Source: Anaerolineae bacterium (GTDB lineage Bacteria; Chloroflexota; Anaerolineae; Anaerolineales; Anaerolineaceae). From it: DNA of 64,000 nt. The stretch is taken from positions 1 through 64,000 of the forward strand of contig JABLWW010000016.1 in the NCBI GenBank assembly GCA_013178295.1, written 5' to 3'. Positions 1-61,353 of the stretch are shown here, one piece after another (the first letter of the stretch is position 1; each line of letters begins with the position of its first letter). Under the pieces are notes generated by a model that made no database searches, was not told the origin of the DNA, and saw only the letters and a list, made by a program, of their open reading frames with translations. The translations under genes and the position numbers were made by a program.

Positions 1-494
<494 letters not shown>

Positions 495-566
495 CTATAT
501 GGTGCGGAGAATCGAGTATTCTTTGATTTTTCTACATACTATTCATAAAATCAGTCAACAAAGTCT

Positions 567-683
567 CTTGGTGACGATAGCGGCAGGGGTACACCCGGTC
601 ACATCCCGAACCCGGTCGTTAAGGCTGCCAGCGCCGATGGTACTTGGGGGGCGACCCCCTGGGAGAGTAGGTCATTGCCAAGG
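567..683 (+). rRNA. rrf: 5S ribosomal RNA
   Basis: About 117 nt. The 5' end CTTGGTGAC can pair with the 3' end GTCATTGCCAAG to form helix I. The internal motif CACCCGGTCACATCCCGAAC (about 592-611) is the conserved loop B/C region, and GGGAGAGTAGGTC is the conserved 3' part. It lies just downstream of 23S on the same strand. A T-rich stretch follows (from ~687) and may end transcription before the convergent aldo/keto reductase gene. Confidence 0.95.
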
Positions 684-54570: not shown

Positions 54571-54601
54571 TTGACGATTTTGAAAAAATCTGTGATATAA
54601 T
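54571..54601 (+). promoter_or_regulatory. Promoter of the his operon
   Basis: TTGACG (54571-54576) and an extended -10, TGATATAAT (TATAAT 54596-54601). The spacer to TATAAT is long (19) but the TG extension can compensate. The predicted start (~54608-54610) coincides with the leader-peptide ATG. Confidence 0.7.
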
Positions 54602-54609
54602 CTTGTCCT

Positions 54610-54690
54610 ATGCCGTTCCGTCTGTTTTCTTGCCTGCATCATCATCATGTGGTTTTAACCTCCCCTCCGGGCAGGTCTGTTGGGCGTTGA
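54610..54690 (+). CDS. hisL: His operon leader peptide with four consecutive His codons
   Basis: 26 codons, ATG to TGA, containing CAT four times in a row (54637-54648, residues 10-13) within LFSCLHHHHVVL. No Shine-Dalgarno is seen; the ATG lies 8 nt after the -10, so it should be translated from a leaderless mRNA. Stalling at His codons when charged tRNA-His is scarce would favour antitermination upstream of hisG. The promoter, the peptide, the terminator at 54727-54748 and the his genes that follow make this very probable. Confidence 0.88.
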   Translation: MPFRLFSCLHHHHVVLTSPPGRSVGR

Positions 54691-54726
54691 TGTAAGACAG
54701 GCATTGTTGCATACAGGTTCATCCAG

Positions 54727-54758
54727 ACGCTCCCCGGAAGGGGAGCGTTTTATTTTTC
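54727..54758 (+). terminator. His attenuator terminator
   Basis: ACGCTCCCC pairs perfectly with GGGGAGCGT (9 bp, loop GGAA), followed by TTTTATTTTT. It ends 17 nt before hisG. A CCTCCCC just after the His codons (54659-54665) could compete for the GGGGAG arm, and CCTGC (54633-54637) can pair with GCAGG (54672-54676); folding was not computed. Confidence 0.88.
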
Positions 54759-54774
54759 TGCTTAAGGAGTAGCA

Positions 54775-55779
54775 ATGATCACGGCTCAAAAAGAAATTCG
54801 GCTTGGTTTGCCCAGTAAGGGCCCTTTGTATGAACCCACGCTTAACTTGCTGGCGAGCGCCGGGCTTGCGGTACACAAGCCCAACCCGCGCCAGTACCGC
54901 GCTGAGATACCCGCCCTGCCGGGATTGGTGATTCTCTTCCAGCGTCCGGGGGACATTGTGGTCAGCGTGCGCGAGGGCAGCCTGGATTTTGGCATTACCG
55001 GTTGGGACGTTTTTTCGGAGCGGCGAGGTGATAATGGCAGGGTTTTACCGATTCACCCTGCGCTGGGTTATGGTTTTTGTACGCTGAACGTTATTGTGCC
55101 TGAGGTGCTCGAGCAGGTCAACACGATGGCTGATCTGCGCGCCTGGCAGCAAGCACTTAACAGACCGCTGCGTGTGGCGACTAAATTCCCCAACCTGACG
55201 CGGGCATATCTTTTGGAGCACGAGATCGCGCAGTTTGAGCTGATCTTTGCCGAGGGGACGCTGGAAATTGCCCCCGCCGTTGGGTTTGCTGATGTAGTTT
55301 CCGACCTGGTTTCGACGGGTACTACTTTGCATGATAACCGTCTCAAAAAATTGAAGGATGGGCAGGTGCTTGCCTCGCAGGCTTGTCTGATTGCCAATCG
55401 AGAAAGTCTCAAAAGCTGTCCCCAAGCATTAGCACTGGCGCGGCAGCTTCTGGAATTTATTGTGGCACATCTGCGCGCCAGCGAGTGTGTGTCGGTTTTT
55501 GCCAACATGCGCGGTGAGACACCGGATGTTATTGCTGAGCGGATGTTCACCCAGCCGCTGCTGGGTGGGCTGCAGGGACCAACCATTTCGCCGGTGGTTT
55601 CCCGCGATGGGAGCAAGTGGTATGCGGTGCATCTGATTGTGCGTAAAGCCCAGCTTGTGCAGGCAATTGCCGGGTTGCGTCAGGTGGGCGGGAGTGGTGT
55701 TGTGGTTACCCCGGTTACGTACATCTTTGAAGAAGAGCCACATGAATATTGCCAGATGCTCAAAATGCTGAAGGACTGA
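54775..55779 (+). CDS. hisG: ATP phosphoribosyltransferase, long form
   Basis: 334 aa. First step of histidine synthesis: ATP + PRPP to phosphoribosyl-ATP. Catalytic domains contain IRLGLPSKGPLYEPTLNLLA, then FGITGWDVF and the PRPP site GFADVVSDLVSTGTTLHDN. A C-terminal ~70-residue regulatory ACT-like domain (KWYAVHLIVRKAQLVQAIAG) marks the long form, which does not need HisZ and is usually inhibited by histidine. AAGGAG lies 7 nt before the ATG. Confidence 0.96.
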   Translation: MITAQKEIRLGLPSKGPLYEPTLNLLASAGLAVHKPNPRQYRAEIPALPGLVILFQRPGDIVVSVREGSLDFGITGWDVFSERRGDNGRVLPIHPALGYGFCTLNVIVPEVLEQVNTMADLRAWQQALNRPLRVATKFPNLTRAYLLEHEIAQFELIFAEGTLEIAPAVGFADVVSDLVSTGTTLHDNRLKKLKDGQVLASQACLIANRESLKSCPQALALARQLLEFIVAHLRASECVSVFANMRGETPDVIAERMFTQPLLGGLQGPTISPVVSRDGSKWYAVHLIVRKAQLVQAIAGLRQVGGSGVVVTPVTYIFEEEPHEYCQMLKMLKD

Positions 55780-55782
55780 GCG

Positions 55783-56877
55783 ATGAAGGAAAGTTTACCC
55801 AACGTTTGTGACCATATTCAGATGATGCCAGCTTATGAACCAGTGACACCTGCGGAGGTGCTGGCGCGCCGACTTGGTTTTGCGTCGAAGGATATTATCA
55901 AGCTGGACGCCAATGAGAACCCGTATGCGCCAGTGGAAGCAGTGCGTCACGCGTTGGCGCAGACCCACAATTTGAACCGTTATCCAGACCCGCAGCAGCG
56001 GGCACTGCGCGAGGCATTGTCGCAGTATCATGCCTTGCCAGTCGAGAACATACTTGCTGGTGCCGGTGCGGATGAATTGATTGACCTGCTCATGCGTCTT
56101 TTCTTACAGCCTGGGGATGCAGTTGTAAATTGCCCGCCTACCTTTGGAATGTACGCATTCGATGCCAACTTACAGGGGGCGCGTGTGGTGGATGTCTATC
56201 GCCGTCCCGATTTCAGCCTTGATCTGCCCGCATTGGAAGCAGTGGTGGAGAAAGAATGTCCCAAATTACTTTTTCTCGCTTCTCCTAATAATCCGGATGG
56301 CAGTTTGTTACCCTGCGCCGAACTGGAGCGATTGCTGGCATTGCCGGTGGTTGTGGTGCTGGACGAAGCCTACGTGGAATTTGCGGCTCCGGGCTGCACG
56401 ATGATTAACGAGGTGCCGCGGCGTAGCAATCTGGTTGTTTTGCGCACCTTTAGCAAGTGGGCGGGGCTGGCAGGGCTGCGAGTGGGGTATGGCGTCTTCC
56501 CAGCCTGGATGATGGAACACCTGTGGAAAATGAAGCAGCCGTATAATCTGTCTGTGGCGGGGTCTGTGGCAGCGGTTGTTTCCATCGAACATGCGGATGC
56601 GTTGTGCTGTTTTGCCAGCCGCATTGTCGCCGAACGGGAAAGATTCTATAAGGAGGTGCAGAAAGTTCCCTGGTTGTTTCCCTTTCCATCACAGGCTAAT
56701 TTTATCCTGTGCCATGTCAAGGGTAGGGATGCTCGCACCGTCAGACAGCGGCTGGCTGAACGCGGCATTTTGGTGCGCTATTTTGACAAACCCCGCCTTG
56801 AGAACAGCATCCGCATCAGTATTGGCACACCAGACCAAATGGATGCCCTGCTTGCGGCTCTTTTGGAGATGAATTGA
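55783..56877 (+). CDS. hisC: Histidinol-phosphate aminotransferase
   Basis: 364 aa fold-type I PLP enzyme. Seen: KLDANENPYAPVEAV, the turn GAGADELIDLLMRLF, ASPNNPDGSL, the Asp/Tyr pair VVLDEAYVEF, and the PLP Lys in RTFSKWAGLAGLRVGYG (~K226). It starts 3 nt after hisG. Confidence 0.95.
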   Translation: MKESLPNVCDHIQMMPAYEPVTPAEVLARRLGFASKDIIKLDANENPYAPVEAVRHALAQTHNLNRYPDPQQRALREALSQYHALPVENILAGAGADELIDLLMRLFLQPGDAVVNCPPTFGMYAFDANLQGARVVDVYRRPDFSLDLPALEAVVEKECPKLLFLASPNNPDGSLLPCAELERLLALPVVVVLDEAYVEFAAPGCTMINEVPRRSNLVVLRTFSKWAGLAGLRVGYGVFPAWMMEHLWKMKQPYNLSVAGSVAAVVSIEHADALCCFASRIVAERERFYKEVQKVPWLFPFPSQANFILCHVKGRDARTVRQRLAERGILVRYFDKPRLENSIRISIGTPDQMDALLAALLEMN

Positions 56878-56892
56878 ACAGGAGTGTGAAAC

Positions 56893-57483
56893 ATGAGAAA
56901 TGCTGAAATCCATCGTAAAACCAGAGAAACTGATATCTGTGTTCGTATCAGCCTGGATGGGGGCGGGCGGCGCTCTGTGGTAACGGGCGTTGGCTTTCTT
57001 GACCACATGCTGGATCATCTTGCTTTACATGGTATGTTTGATCTCGAGATCAGCGCCTCAGGCGATCTCTATATAGACCCACACCATCTGGTGGAAGACT
57101 GCGCCATTGTTCTGGGACAGGCGCTGGATCAGGCGCTGGGTGACCGCGTTGGCATTTTCCGTATGGGCAGCGCGTATGTGCCCATGGATGACTCGCTGGC
57201 GTTTGTCAGTCTCGACCTTTCAGGACGACCGTATGCGGTTGTTGAGGCTGTATGGGCATCACCAATGGTGGGGGGGATTTCTACCACGCTGATTGCGCAT
57301 TTCTTTGAGTCGTTTGCCTTTGCTTCCAGAACCACGTTGCACGCGCGCCTGCTCTATGGGCGTGATGATCATCATGGGGCAGAGGCGCTGTTTAAGGCAT
57401 TGGGGCGCGCCCTGGATTGTGCTGTCCGTGTTGACTCGCGCCGCCAGAATCTTATTCCCAGCACCAAGGGCAGTCTGACATGA
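56893..57483 (+). CDS. hisB: Imidazoleglycerol-phosphate dehydratase
   Basis: 196 aa, monofunctional (no fused phosphatase). The metal-binding His clusters are seen in FLDHMLDHLALHG, DPHHLVEDCAIVLG and DDHHGAEALFKALGRAL. It overlaps hisH by 4 nt. Because it lacks the phosphatase domain, a separate histidinol phosphatase is needed; see the HAD gene at 60220. Confidence 0.96.
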   Translation: MRNAEIHRKTRETDICVRISLDGGGRRSVVTGVGFLDHMLDHLALHGMFDLEISASGDLYIDPHHLVEDCAIVLGQALDQALGDRVGIFRMGSAYVPMDDSLAFVSLDLSGRPYAVVEAVWASPMVGGISTTLIAHFFESFAFASRTTLHARLLYGRDDHHGAEALFKALGRALDCAVRVDSRRQNLIPSTKGSLT

Positions 57484-58088
57484 TCGCGATCGTAGATTAT
57501 GGCGTTGGGAATTTGCGTTCTGTTGAAAAGGCACTGCAACAGGTCGGCGCACAGACGGTGGTTACCAGCGACGGGCAGACTATCCTTGATGCGGGCGGGG
57601 TGGTAGTTCCTGGCGTTGGCGCGTTCAGGGATGGCATGGCGCAGTTGCGCCGCCAAGGGCTGGATAGGGTGATTTGCATGGTGGCAGCACAGGGCAAGCC
57701 GCTGCTGGGCATCTGTTTGGGAATGCAATTGCTGTTTGAAAGCAGCGAGGAGATGGGATTTTGTGAGGGGCTGGCGCTTCTGGAGGGGCGGGTTGTCCGC
57801 TTTCCTGCCACGGGGTTAAAAATACCTCAGACCGGATGGAATCGCCTCTGGTTTGCACAGCAGCATCCCCTGCTGGGAGGCTTATCTGATGGCTGTTATG
57901 TTTACTTCAATCACAGTTATTTTTGCCAAGCCACTGCGCAGGAGGTTGTGCTTGCTCATGCGGAGTATGGTATCCGTTATCCGGTTGCGGTAGGTTGTGA
58001 GCGGGTTTTTGGCGTCCAGTTTCACCCCGAAAAAAGCCAGGAGATTGGGCTGCGTATTCTGCGTAACTTTGTGGAGATGGCAAGATGA
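57480..58088 (+). CDS. hisH: Imidazole glycerol phosphate synthase, glutamine amidotransferase subunit
   Basis: 202 aa class I amidotransferase that feeds ammonia to HisF. Nucleophile Cys in GICLGMQLLFE (~C81), His and Glu in VQFHPEKSQEIG. Overlaps hisB and hisA by 4 nt each. Confidence 0.96.
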   Translation: MIAIVDYGVGNLRSVEKALQQVGAQTVVTSDGQTILDAGGVVVPGVGAFRDGMAQLRRQGLDRVICMVAAQGKPLLGICLGMQLLFESSEEMGFCEGLALLEGRVVRFPATGLKIPQTGWNRLWFAQQHPLLGGLSDGCYVYFNHSYFCQATAQEVVLAHAEYGIRYPVAVGCERVFGVQFHPEKSQEIGLRILRNFVEMAR

Positions 58089-58861
58089 GCAACTTTACTG
58101 TTTTCCCTGCGATTGACCTGCGCCGCGGGAAGGTGGTTCGCCTGTTGCGGGGAGACCCTGCCTGCCAGACTACCTATAGCGACGACCCTGCCTCCATTGC
58201 TGCGCGCTGGCTGGAAGAAGGTGCACGCTGGCTGCACGTGGTTAACCTGGACGGCGCTTTTGGGGAGGAAGAGCATCCTAATCTGCTTGCGTTGGACGCC
58301 ATCCTCAAAATGGCGCGTGCCTATTGCCCGCCCCGTTTTGTACAGTTTGGCGGCGGTGTGCGCACGCTGGCGATGATCGAACAGGTTCTTCAAACGGGGG
58401 TTGAACGTGTTGTATTGGGGACGATGGCAGCCACATCGGCTGATCTGGCTGCTGAAGCGGTCAAATGTTTTGGCAGCGGGCGGGTGGCAGCAGCCTTAGA
58501 TATCCGCGCTGGCAGGGTGGCAGTGGAGGGTTGGAGAAGCACCCTTTCTAGCTCGGCTGAGGAGCTGGGACGTAGCCTGTGTGCGGCAGGCGTGGAGACA
58601 CTGATTTATACGGACATTTCGCGCGATGGCACACAAACAGGCTGTAACGTTGTTGCGGCTGTTGCACTGGCGTCGGCTACGCAGGGACGGGTGATCCTTT
58701 CTGGCGGTGTTTCCTCGCTAAGCGATATCTCAGCCGCGCGCCGGGCTGATCTGGCGGGGGTCATTGTCGGTCGCGCCCTGTATGAGGGATGTTTCAGACT
58801 TTCTCAGGCTTTGGAGGATTGCGATGCTGGCAAAACGCATTATTCCCTGTCTGGATGTTAA
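58085..58861 (+). CDS. hisA: ProFAR isomerase
   Basis: 258 aa TIM barrel converting ProFAR to PRFAR. Catalytic Asp in [18 protein letters not shown] (~D11), second Asp in [14 protein letters not shown], phosphate sites QFGGGVR and LSGGVSS. It overlaps hisF by 38 nt. Confidence 0.95.
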
Positions 58862-59600
58862 AGAAGGGAGAGTTGTCAAAGGTGTTCGCTTTGTTAACCT
58901 TCGGGATGCTGGCGATCCCGTTGAACAGGCGGTGATATATGACCGTATGGGGGCAGATGAACTGGCGTTTCTGGATATTTCTGCCAGCCCGGAGGGACGG
59001 CGTACAACGTTGGAGATGGTACGGCGGGTAGCTGACCGTGTTTTCTTGCCGCTGGTTGTGGGTGGCGGAGTGCGCACGGTGGAAGATGTGCGGGCTGCGC
59101 TGCTGGCGGGGGCGGATAAAGTCAGTATCAACACGGCTGCCTGCTATCACCCTGAATTGCTTTGTGAAGCAGCAATGCGCTTTGGCAGCCAGTGTGTATT
59201 GCTGTCCATTGACGCTCGCCGCAGACGCGAGGGCGGTTGGGAGGTGTTTTCGCATGGCGGACGCAGACCTGCCGGGCTGGATGCTCTTGCATGGGCAGTG
59301 CGCGGTGTGGAACTTGGGGCTGGCGAGATTCTTTTGACCAGCATGGATGCTGATGGGACGCGTCTGGGATTTGATGTGGAACTGACCCGCGCAATTGCGC
59401 AGATTGTTGCGGTGCCGGTCATCGCCAGCGGTGGGGCAGGGGAACCAGCCCATTTTTTGCAGGTATTGACCGATGGAAAAGCTGATGCGGCGTTGGCGGC
59501 TTCGTTGTTTCACGATAAAATCCTGACCATACCACAGGTGAAGCGGTATCTTGCGGAACACGGTGTTCCTGTTCGCCCTGCTGGTTGTGAGGTTGTCTGA
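58824..59600 (+). CDS. hisF: Imidazole glycerol phosphate synthase, cyclase subunit
   Basis: 258 aa TIM barrel. [20 protein letters not shown] start, catalytic Asp11 and Asp in [15 protein letters not shown]; phosphate sites VGGGVR and ASGGAG. ATG 58824 has GGAGG 6 nt upstream, inside the end of hisA; the frame is open from 58764 but lacks a site. Overlaps hisI by 1 nt. Confidence 0.95.
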
Positions 59601-59953
59601 TGGACGTTGCGCTGCAATATAATCAGGAAGGGTTGCTGCCTGCGGTGGTGCAGGATTTTTACAGTGGGGAGGTATTAATGCTTGCCTGGATGAACGCCGA
59701 AGCGCTGACGCGCACACTGGAGGGAGGGTTTGCCTGTTTTTACTCGCGCAGCCGTCAAAAACTGTGGTTAAAAGGCGAAACTTCGGGTAATTTTTTGAAG
59801 GTCAAAGAAATTTGCACAGACTGTGACGCTGATAGTCTTTTGCTGCGCGTGGTGCCTTATGGACCTGCCTGTCACACAGGCGCCCGCACGTGTTTTTATC
59901 AAAACTTGTACACTGCTGGAGAGGACAGTCATGATGCCGCAATACCTGTATGA
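59600..59953 (+). CDS. hisI: Phosphoribosyl-AMP cyclohydrolase
   Basis: 117 aa. Opens the adenine ring of PR-AMP. Typical motifs: VLMLAWMNAEALTRTL, SRSRQKLWLKGETSGN, the metal site CTDCDADSLLL and CHTGARTCFY. Separate from HisE here, whereas many bacteria fuse the two. Confidence 0.95.
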   Translation: MDVALQYNQEGLLPAVVQDFYSGEVLMLAWMNAEALTRTLEGGFACFYSRSRQKLWLKGETSGNFLKVKEICTDCDADSLLLRVVPYGPACHTGARTCFYQNLYTAGEDSHDAAIPV

Positions 59954-60212
59954 GGTGATTCTGGATCGCAAAGCAAACCCCAGAGAGGGTTCTTATACTT
60001 GTTGGCTTTTTGAACAGGGAGAAGATGAAATTTTGAAGAAGATTGGCGAAGAGGCGGTGGAAGTGATACTTGCTGCCAGGGGACAGGGAGATAACCGTCT
60101 GGTAGAAGAGCTGGCTGATCTGTATTACCACGTTCTTGTGTTGCTTGCCTGGCGTGGGTTAAACCCTGAAGCTATAAACAGTGAATTGCAGCGGCGGCAT
60201 CTTGCGGGTTGA
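59931..60212 (+). CDS. hisE: Phosphoribosyl-ATP pyrophosphohydrolase
   Basis: 93 aa, MazG-like all-alpha fold. Seen: LYEVILDRKANPREGSYTCW, KKIGEEAVEVILAA and LVEELADLYYHVLVLLAWRG with metal-binding acids. ATG 59931 has GGAGAGG ~6 nt upstream; the longer frame from 59823 lies inside hisI. Overlaps hisI by 23 nt. Confidence 0.93.
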   Translation: MMPQYLYEVILDRKANPREGSYTCWLFEQGEDEILKKIGEEAVEVILAARGQGDNRLVEELADLYYHVLVLLAWRGLNPEAINSELQRRHLAG

Positions 60213-60219
60213 TTTGGCG

Positions 60220-61353
60220 ATGGACATCTTGCTTTTTGACATGGACAGCGTTTTGATCGAGCCGCATGGCTATCATCGCGCCTTGCAGGATACGGTTCTA
60301 TGGGCAGGGCGGGCAATTGGCTTTGCCAAGGCTGTTCTAACGTCAGATGACATTGCTCGTTTTGAGGCGGCGGGGGTTTCCAGCGAGTGGGATACGTCTG
60401 CCATTTGTGCAGCGTGGATGCTTCTGTCTGCATGGTCGGTGGACGGGGCGCGCCAATTGGTGGGGCGTTTTGACCCTTTGCCGCAGAAGCTCGATCTCCC
60501 TGCACCGGATTTTGCGACACTTGCGCATTGTCTGGCAATGCCACAGCTGGCGTCGCTCAGCCCGTTGTCGCGCGCCCGGCGGCTGTTTCTCGGAGAAGAT
60601 GAACTCACCCTGGCGCAGCGTGTGATTGTAGAAGAAATGTTGGCTCAGGCACGACAGCCGCTTGCACCGACGTATCAGGTTTTTCAGGAATTGGCGCTTG
60701 GCTCCAATTTGTTTGAGAAATTGTATGGGTTGCCGCCTGCCTTTGGCAGTGAAAGTTATCTTGCGATGTATGATCGCCCAATGCTGAATGAACGTGAAAC
60801 CCAAATGTTGCAAAACTGGCTTGGTCGCAAGGGGCATTTTGCCAGTATTCTGACAGCCCGCCCTGGAGAGTCTTTGCCGCCTGTGTTCAGTCCCCCGGAA
60901 GCCGAAATCGGGGTGAGAATCCTGGGGCTACAAGCTGTGCCGATTGCCAGCTTTGGGAAACTGCAATGGCTTGCGGAGCGCCTTGGGGCGGATGCACAAT
61001 CCTTTGTCAAGCCGTCCCCTGTGCATGCTCTGGCTGCTTTGCTGCTTGCCATTGGTGTTCCATCTGCAGAAAGCCTGCAAAGCGCAGCCGCTTTGGCGCT
61101 TGAGGGGAAGGCGGGTGCTGCCTGGAAAGAGCTGGACGGGGCGCGTGTGGTGGTTTTTGAGGACTCGGTGGGGGGGATAGAAAGCCTGAGAAAGGCTTGT
61201 GCATTGCTGCAACGCCAGGGGATCGTGCTTGAGCCTGAATACCTTGGGGTTGCCCATCACCCGGTTAAGGTTGAGACGCTGAAAAGCGCTGGCGCCCGCT
61301 GCTTTCTTACACTGTCTGAGGCGCTTTGTCATGCCGAGGTGCTTCCTTGCTGA
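60220..61353 (+). CDS. HAD-superfamily hydrolase, candidate histidinol-phosphate phosphatase
   Basis: 377 aa. HAD motifs: I DILLFDMDSVLIEP, II ILTARPGE, III the Lys of SFVKPSP, IV VVVFEDSVGGIESL. The large cap (~residues 35-200) is unusual. As last gene of a his operon that lacks hisN and has a monofunctional hisB, it may supply the missing phosphatase step; this is inference from position. ATG 60220 is chosen because it begins motif I; no good ribosome site is seen. Confidence 0.75.
   Translation: MDILLFDMDSVLIEPHGYHRALQDTVLWAGRAIGFAKAVLTSDDIARFEAAGVSSEWDTSAICAAWMLLSAWSVDGARQLVGRFDPLPQKLDLPAPDFATLAHCLAMPQLASLSPLSRARRLFLGEDELTLAQRVIVEEMLAQARQPLAPTYQVFQELALGSNLFEKLYGLPPAFGSESYLAMYDRPMLNERETQMLQNWLGRKGHFASILTARPGESLPPVFSPPEAEIGVRILGLQAVPIASFGKLQWLAERLGADAQSFVKPSPVHALAALLLAIGVPSAESLQSAAALALEGKAGAAWKELDGARVVVFEDSVGGIESLRKACALLQRQGIVLEPEYLGVAHHPVKVETLKSAGARCFLTLSEALCHAEVLPC

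Follow-up and report, generated by a model that had tools for sequence, protein, structure and literature searches.

What controls the histidine operon of this Anaerolineae genome, and how is the short histidine-rich ORF in front of hisG translated? The window, i.e., the whole 64,000-nucleotide stretch analysed here, carries a promoter, a 26-codon ORF with four CAT codons, an intrinsic terminator and hisGCBHAFIE, in this order, at 54571-60212. The parts, their order and conservation, the competing predicted structures and the lack of a Shine-Dalgarno (SD) sequence can be read from the DNA itself. From these, we consider the region to be a ribosome-mediated transcription attenuator of the his operon, of which the leader peptide would be translated from a leaderless or near-leaderless mRNA (5' UTR of 0-4 nt). 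The probability of this reading is about 0.86.

The his leader in the window

The source genome belongs to the same family as Pelolinea submarina (Anaerolineaceae, Anaerolineales, Anaerolineae, Chloroflexota), which bears out the initial annotation in its guess of a probable Chloroflexota. That annotation had described a promoter, a 26-codon ORF with four CAT codons, and a terminator with a T run before hisG, and all of these are found in the sequence where it had placed them (Table 1). The ATG at 54610 indeed follows the end of the -10 element (54601) by 8 nt with no SD sequence, as it had also reported. The ORF translates as MPFRLFSCLHHHHVVLTSPPGRSVGR up to its stop codon, and cannot begin further upstream because an in-frame TAA lies inside the -10 element. 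An attenuator is expected to have a small ORF rich in consecutive codons for the amino acid that the operon makes, and a terminator between this ORF and hisG; both are present. The ATG of hisG (54775) has its own AAGGAG. An ORF of 390 amino acids at 60181-61353 (forward strand) overlaps the end of hisE and had no NCBIfam match at an E-value of 0.001; possibly the his operon ends with this gene. The window begins with the 3' end of a 23S rRNA gene followed by a 5S rRNA gene (1-683, forward strand).

Table 1. Positions of the his leader elements and of the his genes in the window
Feature	Position	Strand	Basis and remarks
-35 element TTGACG	54571..54576	+	Sequence; TTGAC-type -35 found again in many relatives
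Extended -10 element TGaTATAAT	54593..54601	+	TATAAT at 54596-54601; 19-nt spacer from -35
Leader peptide ORF, 26 codons and TGA, without SD sequence	54610..54690	+	Predicted transcript start at or within ~2 nt of the ATG
Four CAT (His) codons, putative sensing site	54637..54648	+	Sequence; His run conserved in relatives
Antiterminator 5' strand (predicted)	54657..54671	+	Fold; 15 bp with two bulges, partner 54733-54749
Antiterminator 3' strand (predicted)	54733..54749	+	Fold; same kind of switch in the 14-leader alignment A2
Intrinsic terminator and T run	54725..54758	+	Hairpin 54725-54750; 11 pairs, 7 of them G-C, loop GGAA
hisG (long form), at the head of the operon	54775..55779	+	NCBIfam TIGR00070
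hisC, hisB, hisH, hisA, hisF, hisI, hisE, in a tight or overlapping row	55783..60212	+	NCBIfam

Conservation of the histidine-codon ORF

Among 101 genomes (the source genome and 100 relatives), 49 carried hisG, and the region upstream of the gene was examined in 48, the source genome included. We added 80 named hisG loci, which are the best 80 of 226 (78 with Chloroflexota names, and L065 and L077 labelled otherwise), and 68 loci of the class (28 returned and 40 picked) out of 224 class genomes with hisG. The total of 196 upstream regions became 176 once exact duplicates were removed. A His-run ORF, defined as a short ORF that opens with ATG and has three or more His within five codons, precedes hisG in 45 of the 48 loci of the source genome and its relatives, 64 of 72 named loci, and 16 of 56 class loci. 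By a like test, such an ORF was found at none of 31 hisG loci sampled from other Chloroflexota classes, a sample of hisG loci only, so that leaders may occur at other first genes there; one run in these classes has no start codon. The elements in the window are far beyond chance, given the His run in 45 of 48 related hisG loci versus 0 of 31 in other classes. If the ORF were a leader, its run of His codons was expected to be kept in related his leaders, and it is kept in 45 of the 48 loci.

Of the 40 class loci without a His-run ORF, 30 have an ORF of at least 80 codons (more than 230 codons in 25) ending within 150 nt upstream of hisG, and hisG is therefore probably not the first gene there; two of the 40 have less than 150 nt of upstream DNA. 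Among the misses, L052 and L094 have a GTG start with a leaderless-type promoter, while L117, L149, L154 and L160 have fewer or dispersed His codons. For six class loci in which a long HisG gene lies behind another ORF (L349-L354), no leader was found in ~5.8 kb upstream. The his leader is widespread among the Anaerolineae examined, and not peculiar to one genome. After those at least 90% alike were dropped, 120 distinct leaders were kept of 125. His codons counted in 111 leaders comprise 331 CAT and 146 CAC.

Predicted leaderless or near-leaderless start of the leader ORF

For each leader, we asked if the -10 element of the best promoter ends 6-11 nt before the ATG. This spacing rule holds for 111 of the 120 distinct leaders, as compared with 52 of 899 other ATGs in the same regions (5.8%). 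When a promoter score of at least 9 of 12 is required in addition, the counts are 96 of 120 leaders versus 9 of 899 control ATGs, and among leaders with a single candidate ATG the rule holds for 81 of 89. The spacer between -35 and -10 is 17 nt in 81 of the 111. Nine leaders fail the rule; in three of them (L028, L051 and L058) a weaker -10 element can be seen by eye at 7-10 nt, but these were excluded from the count. The promoter of the window is absent from the output of the scan, as the latter permits only spacers of 16-18 nt and the spacer in the window is longer.

As is typical of leaderless mRNAs, nearly all start codons of the leaders lack an SD sequence. An SD-like 4-mer lies in the 15 nt before the ATG of 1 of 120 leaders; in windows of equal size, it occurs at 104 of 120 hisG starts and at 223 of 2400 positions drawn at random. 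When a longer stretch was taken for hisG, the counts were 1 of 120 leaders and 92 of 120 hisG starts. With the ATG 6-11 nt past the -10 element in 111 of 120 leaders and no SD sequence in 119 of 120, 5' UTRs of ~0-4 nt are predicted. Where the gap is 6-8 nt, the A of the AUG is likely to be the start base. All 51 leaders with a 10-nt gap have a purine at -3, preceded by a run of C; a purine occupies this position in 15 of 19 leaders with a 9-nt gap and in 6 of 16 with a 7-nt gap. This purine resembles a start base and predicts a 5' UTR of 3 nt for the wider gaps. The earlier proposal of a leaderless peptide is supported by the -10 element close to the ATG in 111 of 120 leaders, with the refinement that many relatives probably have a 5' UTR of 3 nt instead of none. 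In the window, the long spacer and the pyrimidines at the usual start positions (7-8 nt past the -10 element) count against a leaderless start.

Leaderless initiation is probably part of the repertoire of the source genome, to judge from an excess of the corresponding pattern and from earlier predictions in the phylum. The pattern TTGAC-N-TAnnnT-N6-10-ATG has 60 matches in this genome versus 20 in a reversed control. Of 30 such loci read individually, 12 lead ORFs of more than 100 amino acids; three of these ORFs stay open for 59-425 codons upstream, and their ATGs may be internal. Leaderless genes were predicted in four of 12 Chloroflexi genomes, with a mean of 4.7% (PMC3160421). Six loci of the source genome (L290, L300, L303, L304, L306 and L311) are candidate leaderless genes in their own right: they are long ORFs with an ATG 6-10 nt past a TAnnnT -10 element, and no SD-like motif occurs in the stretch tested.

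Predicted terminator and antiterminator

The RNA of 54608-54758 folds better than shuffled sequences (z = -2.8; 2 of 200 shuffles equal it). Folding was also the check suggested by the initial annotation, and it yielded both the terminator and a competing antiterminator, as predictions. Modelled without a ribosome, the RNA folds into the terminator, and some of the His-codon stretch falls within a separate hairpin. The predicted 3' strand of the antiterminator covers part of the 5' arm, the loop and the 3' arm of the terminator, making the two structures mutually exclusive, and its 5' strand would fall just beyond the stretch covered by a ribosome that has stalled at the first His codon. Of the 120 leaders, 119 have a terminator downstream of the His run, 17-58 nt past the stop codon, and 86% reach a terminator score of at least 20 as compared with 0.3% of shuffles.

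We compared the best fold in which the terminator hairpin is penalised out with the free fold, placing a ribosome on the first His codon (starved) or at the stop codon (fed); these folds are thermodynamic and ignore kinetics. The median gap between the two is 0.5 kcal/mol with the ribosome on the His codons and 13.8 kcal/mol with the ribosome at the stop codon. This difference is robust to footprints of 9-18 nt (0.5-1.7 versus 13.4-14.5 kcal/mol). At a footprint of 15 nt, 87 of 119 leaders show a gap of no more than 5 kcal/mol when starved, and 1 of 119 does so when fed; in 32 of 119, the antiterminator of the starved state is weaker by more than 5 kcal/mol. The antiterminator beats all 20 spacer shuffles in 70 of 119 leaders (median z = -2.5) and is no better than the shuffles (z above zero) in four of 119. 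With the ribosome on the fourth His codon of the window, the terminator is slightly favoured (-35.2 versus -33.3), and the first His codons should therefore matter most.

Covariation was assessed in alignment A2, which comprises 14 leaders, several of them close to each other. Its terminator helix is 96.8% paired with four pairs changed on both sides, a result reached by 10 of 500 shuffles. The 7-bp antiterminator helix is 93.9% paired with two two-sided pairs, which 163 of 500 shuffles reach; none of the 500 reaches its number of two-sided cells or its covariation score. A longer version of the antiterminator is 85.3% paired with nine two-sided pairs (0 of 500 shuffles). For the terminator and the 7-bp antiterminator of A2, the number of further pair types is not above that of the shuffles. 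Slid versions of the helices pair far less, and columns 130 and 131 co-vary with both their terminator and antiterminator partners. Three sequences account for most of the changes in the 7-bp helix, and few events may underlie them. Gaps within the leader ORF are multiples of three. A mutually exclusive antiterminator is accordingly present as a prediction of the models, and the case for it is weak if the 7-bp helix is taken by itself.

Proposed mechanism and alternatives

We propose that RNA polymerase starts at or beside the A of the leader AUG, and that a ribosome, presumably a 70S one, would load on this 5' AUG while it emerges. When His-tRNA is ample, the ribosome would reach the UGA at 54688 and cover 54657-54671, allowing the terminator at 54725-54750 to form. 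When His-tRNA is scarce, the ribosome would stall on the CAT codons, leaving 54657-54671 free to pair with the terminator loop and the 3' arm behind it; with the antiterminator paired, transcription would proceed into hisG.

An ordinary his attenuator, SD-led or SD-independent, might instead lie on a longer transcript from an upstream promoter, the -10 element beside the ATG being incidental. SD-bearing his leaders with 23-30 nt between the -10 element and the ATG do occur in other families of the class. Furthermore, 76 of the 111 leaders that obey the spacing rule have a further upstream in-frame ATG, GTG or TTG before an in-frame stop (the window has none), and the frame by itself thus does not exclude an earlier start there. 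Nevertheless, a longer transcript leaves unaccounted for the fixed distance of the -10/-35 elements from the ATG, seen in 111 of 120 leaders against 5.8% of control ATGs, the scarcity of SD-like motifs (1 of 120) and the start-like purine at -3 throughout one spacing class (51 of 51), and we regard it as improbable.

The three other explanations are less credible still. A 26-codon ORF could be a chance product in one genome alone, in which case the hairpin would be the terminator of the upstream region or of a divergent gene and no regulation would take place; with the His run in 45 of 48 related loci and at none of 31 sampled outside the class, antiterminators stronger than shuffles, and leaders before three standalone hisD genes, this is very hard to sustain. 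Control of hisG by a tRNA- or ligand-sensing RNA (T-box or riboswitch), with the ORF incidental, might be entertained because T-boxes are used in these genomes, the trpE genes of relatives carrying a T-box motif. The his leader, however, has neither an Rfam match at the gathering cut-off nor a T-box motif, and its His codons are conserved in frame, which makes such control highly unlikely. Equally far-fetched is an action on the translation of hisG by sequestration of its SD sequence rather than on transcription: some known attenuators do so (PMC9413887), but here a T run follows the hairpin in 119 of 120 leaders, and the terminator stem in the window ends 24 nt before the ATG of hisG, leaving AAGGAG outside.

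Comparison with known leaders

By analogy, the leader in the window would work like the enterobacterial his attenuator and start like the leaderless leaders of other amino acids. As in hisL of E. coli and Salmonella, a His-codon run in a short ORF and a terminator competing with an antiterminator lie before the his operon. The hisL peptide has 18 amino acids with seven His in a row (PMC3896937), whereas the present leaders have 3-7 His and apparently a leaderless start, and they have no Rfam match. In some Firmicutes, three to five His codons in a row precede a terminator/antiterminator; the parts seen of PMC9413887 and PMC2965389 place such leaders in the Bacillus cereus group, Peptostreptococcaceae and Erysipelotrichales, and at hisZ/hisS* of bacilli, but include no Chloroflexota members and do not discuss the start mode. 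The former, published in 2022 and concerned with how Gram-positive bacteria regulate his genes, reports attenuators for part of the Firmicutes and mentions the proteobacterial ones. For the his operon of C. glutamicum, T-box-like or translational control was discussed (PMC3896937). Among the literature matches listed, given as titles and the starts of abstracts, there is no report of a his attenuator in Chloroflexota.

Leaderless leader peptides as such are already known: Actinobacteria have them for ilv, trp, leu and cys, and Sinorhizobium has one in trpL. Canestrari et al. reportedly described polycysteine leaderless short ORFs of mycobacteria in 2020. These mycobacterial ORFs are, as mentioned in PMC9031893 and PMC13236596, similar to the present leaders in being leaderless, in their run of the sensed codon and in attenuating an operon, but they concern cysteine and mycobacteria. 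Other actinobacterial leaders, namely that of C. glutamicum ilvBNC (PMC11857589, in part) and trpL1, trpL2, leuL1, leuL2, ilvL, metL and thrL of S. lividans (PMC8079986, in part), resemble the present ones in an ATG that coincides with the transcript start or lies 1 nt from it, in their amino-acid codons and in acting by attenuation; they belong to another phylum and serve other amino acids, no his leader being among the eight of S. lividans in the text seen. In Sinorhizobium meliloti, the 5' end of the attenuator RNA (rnTrpL) is the ATG of the trpL ORF (PMC7298713, in part), but this system concerns tryptophan in an alphaproteobacterium, and its peptide (peTrpL) has functions in trans. The initial annotation singled out a his attenuator with a leaderless peptide in a probable Chloroflexota as noteworthy, and none is reported among the matches listed.

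The kind of element is known, then, and what appears to be new is the combination of his and a leaderless start in Chloroflexota, together with switching of the start mode. The 120 distinct predicted leaders, mostly leaderless-looking, extend predicted ribosome-mediated his attenuation to this phylum. Gene finders based on SD sequences would probably miss such short leader ORFs, and how a common environmental group regulates its his genes may for that reason have gone unnoticed.

A related lineage with two apparent start modes

Some members of the class, from other Anaerolineae families, have a short HisG; an upstream ORF precedes its gene, and both of the ORFs tested encode HisZ. A His-run ORF and then a terminator lie near the head of the upstream ORF in 14 of 34 such loci. 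In family f45 and its neighbour L337 (f46; only two His), the leader is clearly the same element. Three of these leaders (L338, L339 and L357) carry an SD-like motif, and their -10 element lies 29-30 nt before the ATG; two (L370 and L337) carry a weaker SD-like motif at a like distance. Leaderless-looking are L362 (6 nt), L360 (10 nt after TATACA) and L363 (8 nt); the last is ambiguous: it retains an internal ATG, and the SD-like remnant in front of this ATG now falls within the new start of the coding region.

When 15 of these upstream proteins are placed on a tree, the leaderless label (L360, L362, L363 and L369) needs four changes, and well-supported branches impose three of them; L338 groups with L363 as its sister at 100/99. 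The label shows no stronger clustering than shuffled labels do (mean 3.7), a pattern compatible with repeated switching and also with label noise. With L363 set aside, at least two switches of start mode seem to be needed.

It is attractive, though doubtful, to speculate that the start mode of the his leader is evolving in Anaerolineae, having switched between SD-led and leaderless at least two to three times, and that the leaderless mode came near fixation in the relatives of the window because a 70S ribosome that loads on the AUG at the very front of the RNA stays in step with the polymerase. If this is the case, his expression would depend on His-tRNA and on the capacity of the cell for leaderless initiation. 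Orthologous SD-led and leaderless-looking leaders form natural pairs for studying how a ribosome without an SD sequence keeps step with RNA polymerase.

Rfam matches and other amino acid biosynthetic loci

A search of the his leader against Rfam returned no family at the gathering cut-off. Rfam His_leader, which we take to be RF00514, had no match at that cut-off and was absent up to an E-value of 10. The sub-threshold matches up to this value were only CRISPR-DR57, Phe_leader and TUG1_3, which we took as chance; none was a T-box.

The placement of hisD was checked in 20 genomes, in six of which it lies away from hisG. Three of these standalone hisD genes (L316, L329 and L330) have a leader of their own with a His run, a -10 element 6-10 nt before the ATG and a terminator; the other three have no such leader, including that of the source genome (L334), which is on a contig separate from the his operon and has no leader directly upstream. 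By the rule used, no leaderless leader was found at 14 full-length ilvB loci (20 genomes searched), where the first gene of the operon may be another gene. Among his, trp and ilv genes, we found a leaderless attenuator only at his. Matches to the trpE family were present in 12 of 20 genomes and absent from the source genome. The trpE genes of relatives (L199-L207) carry the T-box motif GGTGGCACC in all nine full-length loci, four of which reach the Rfam cut-off. The genomes of these relatives mix T-box control (trpE) with leader-peptide control (his).
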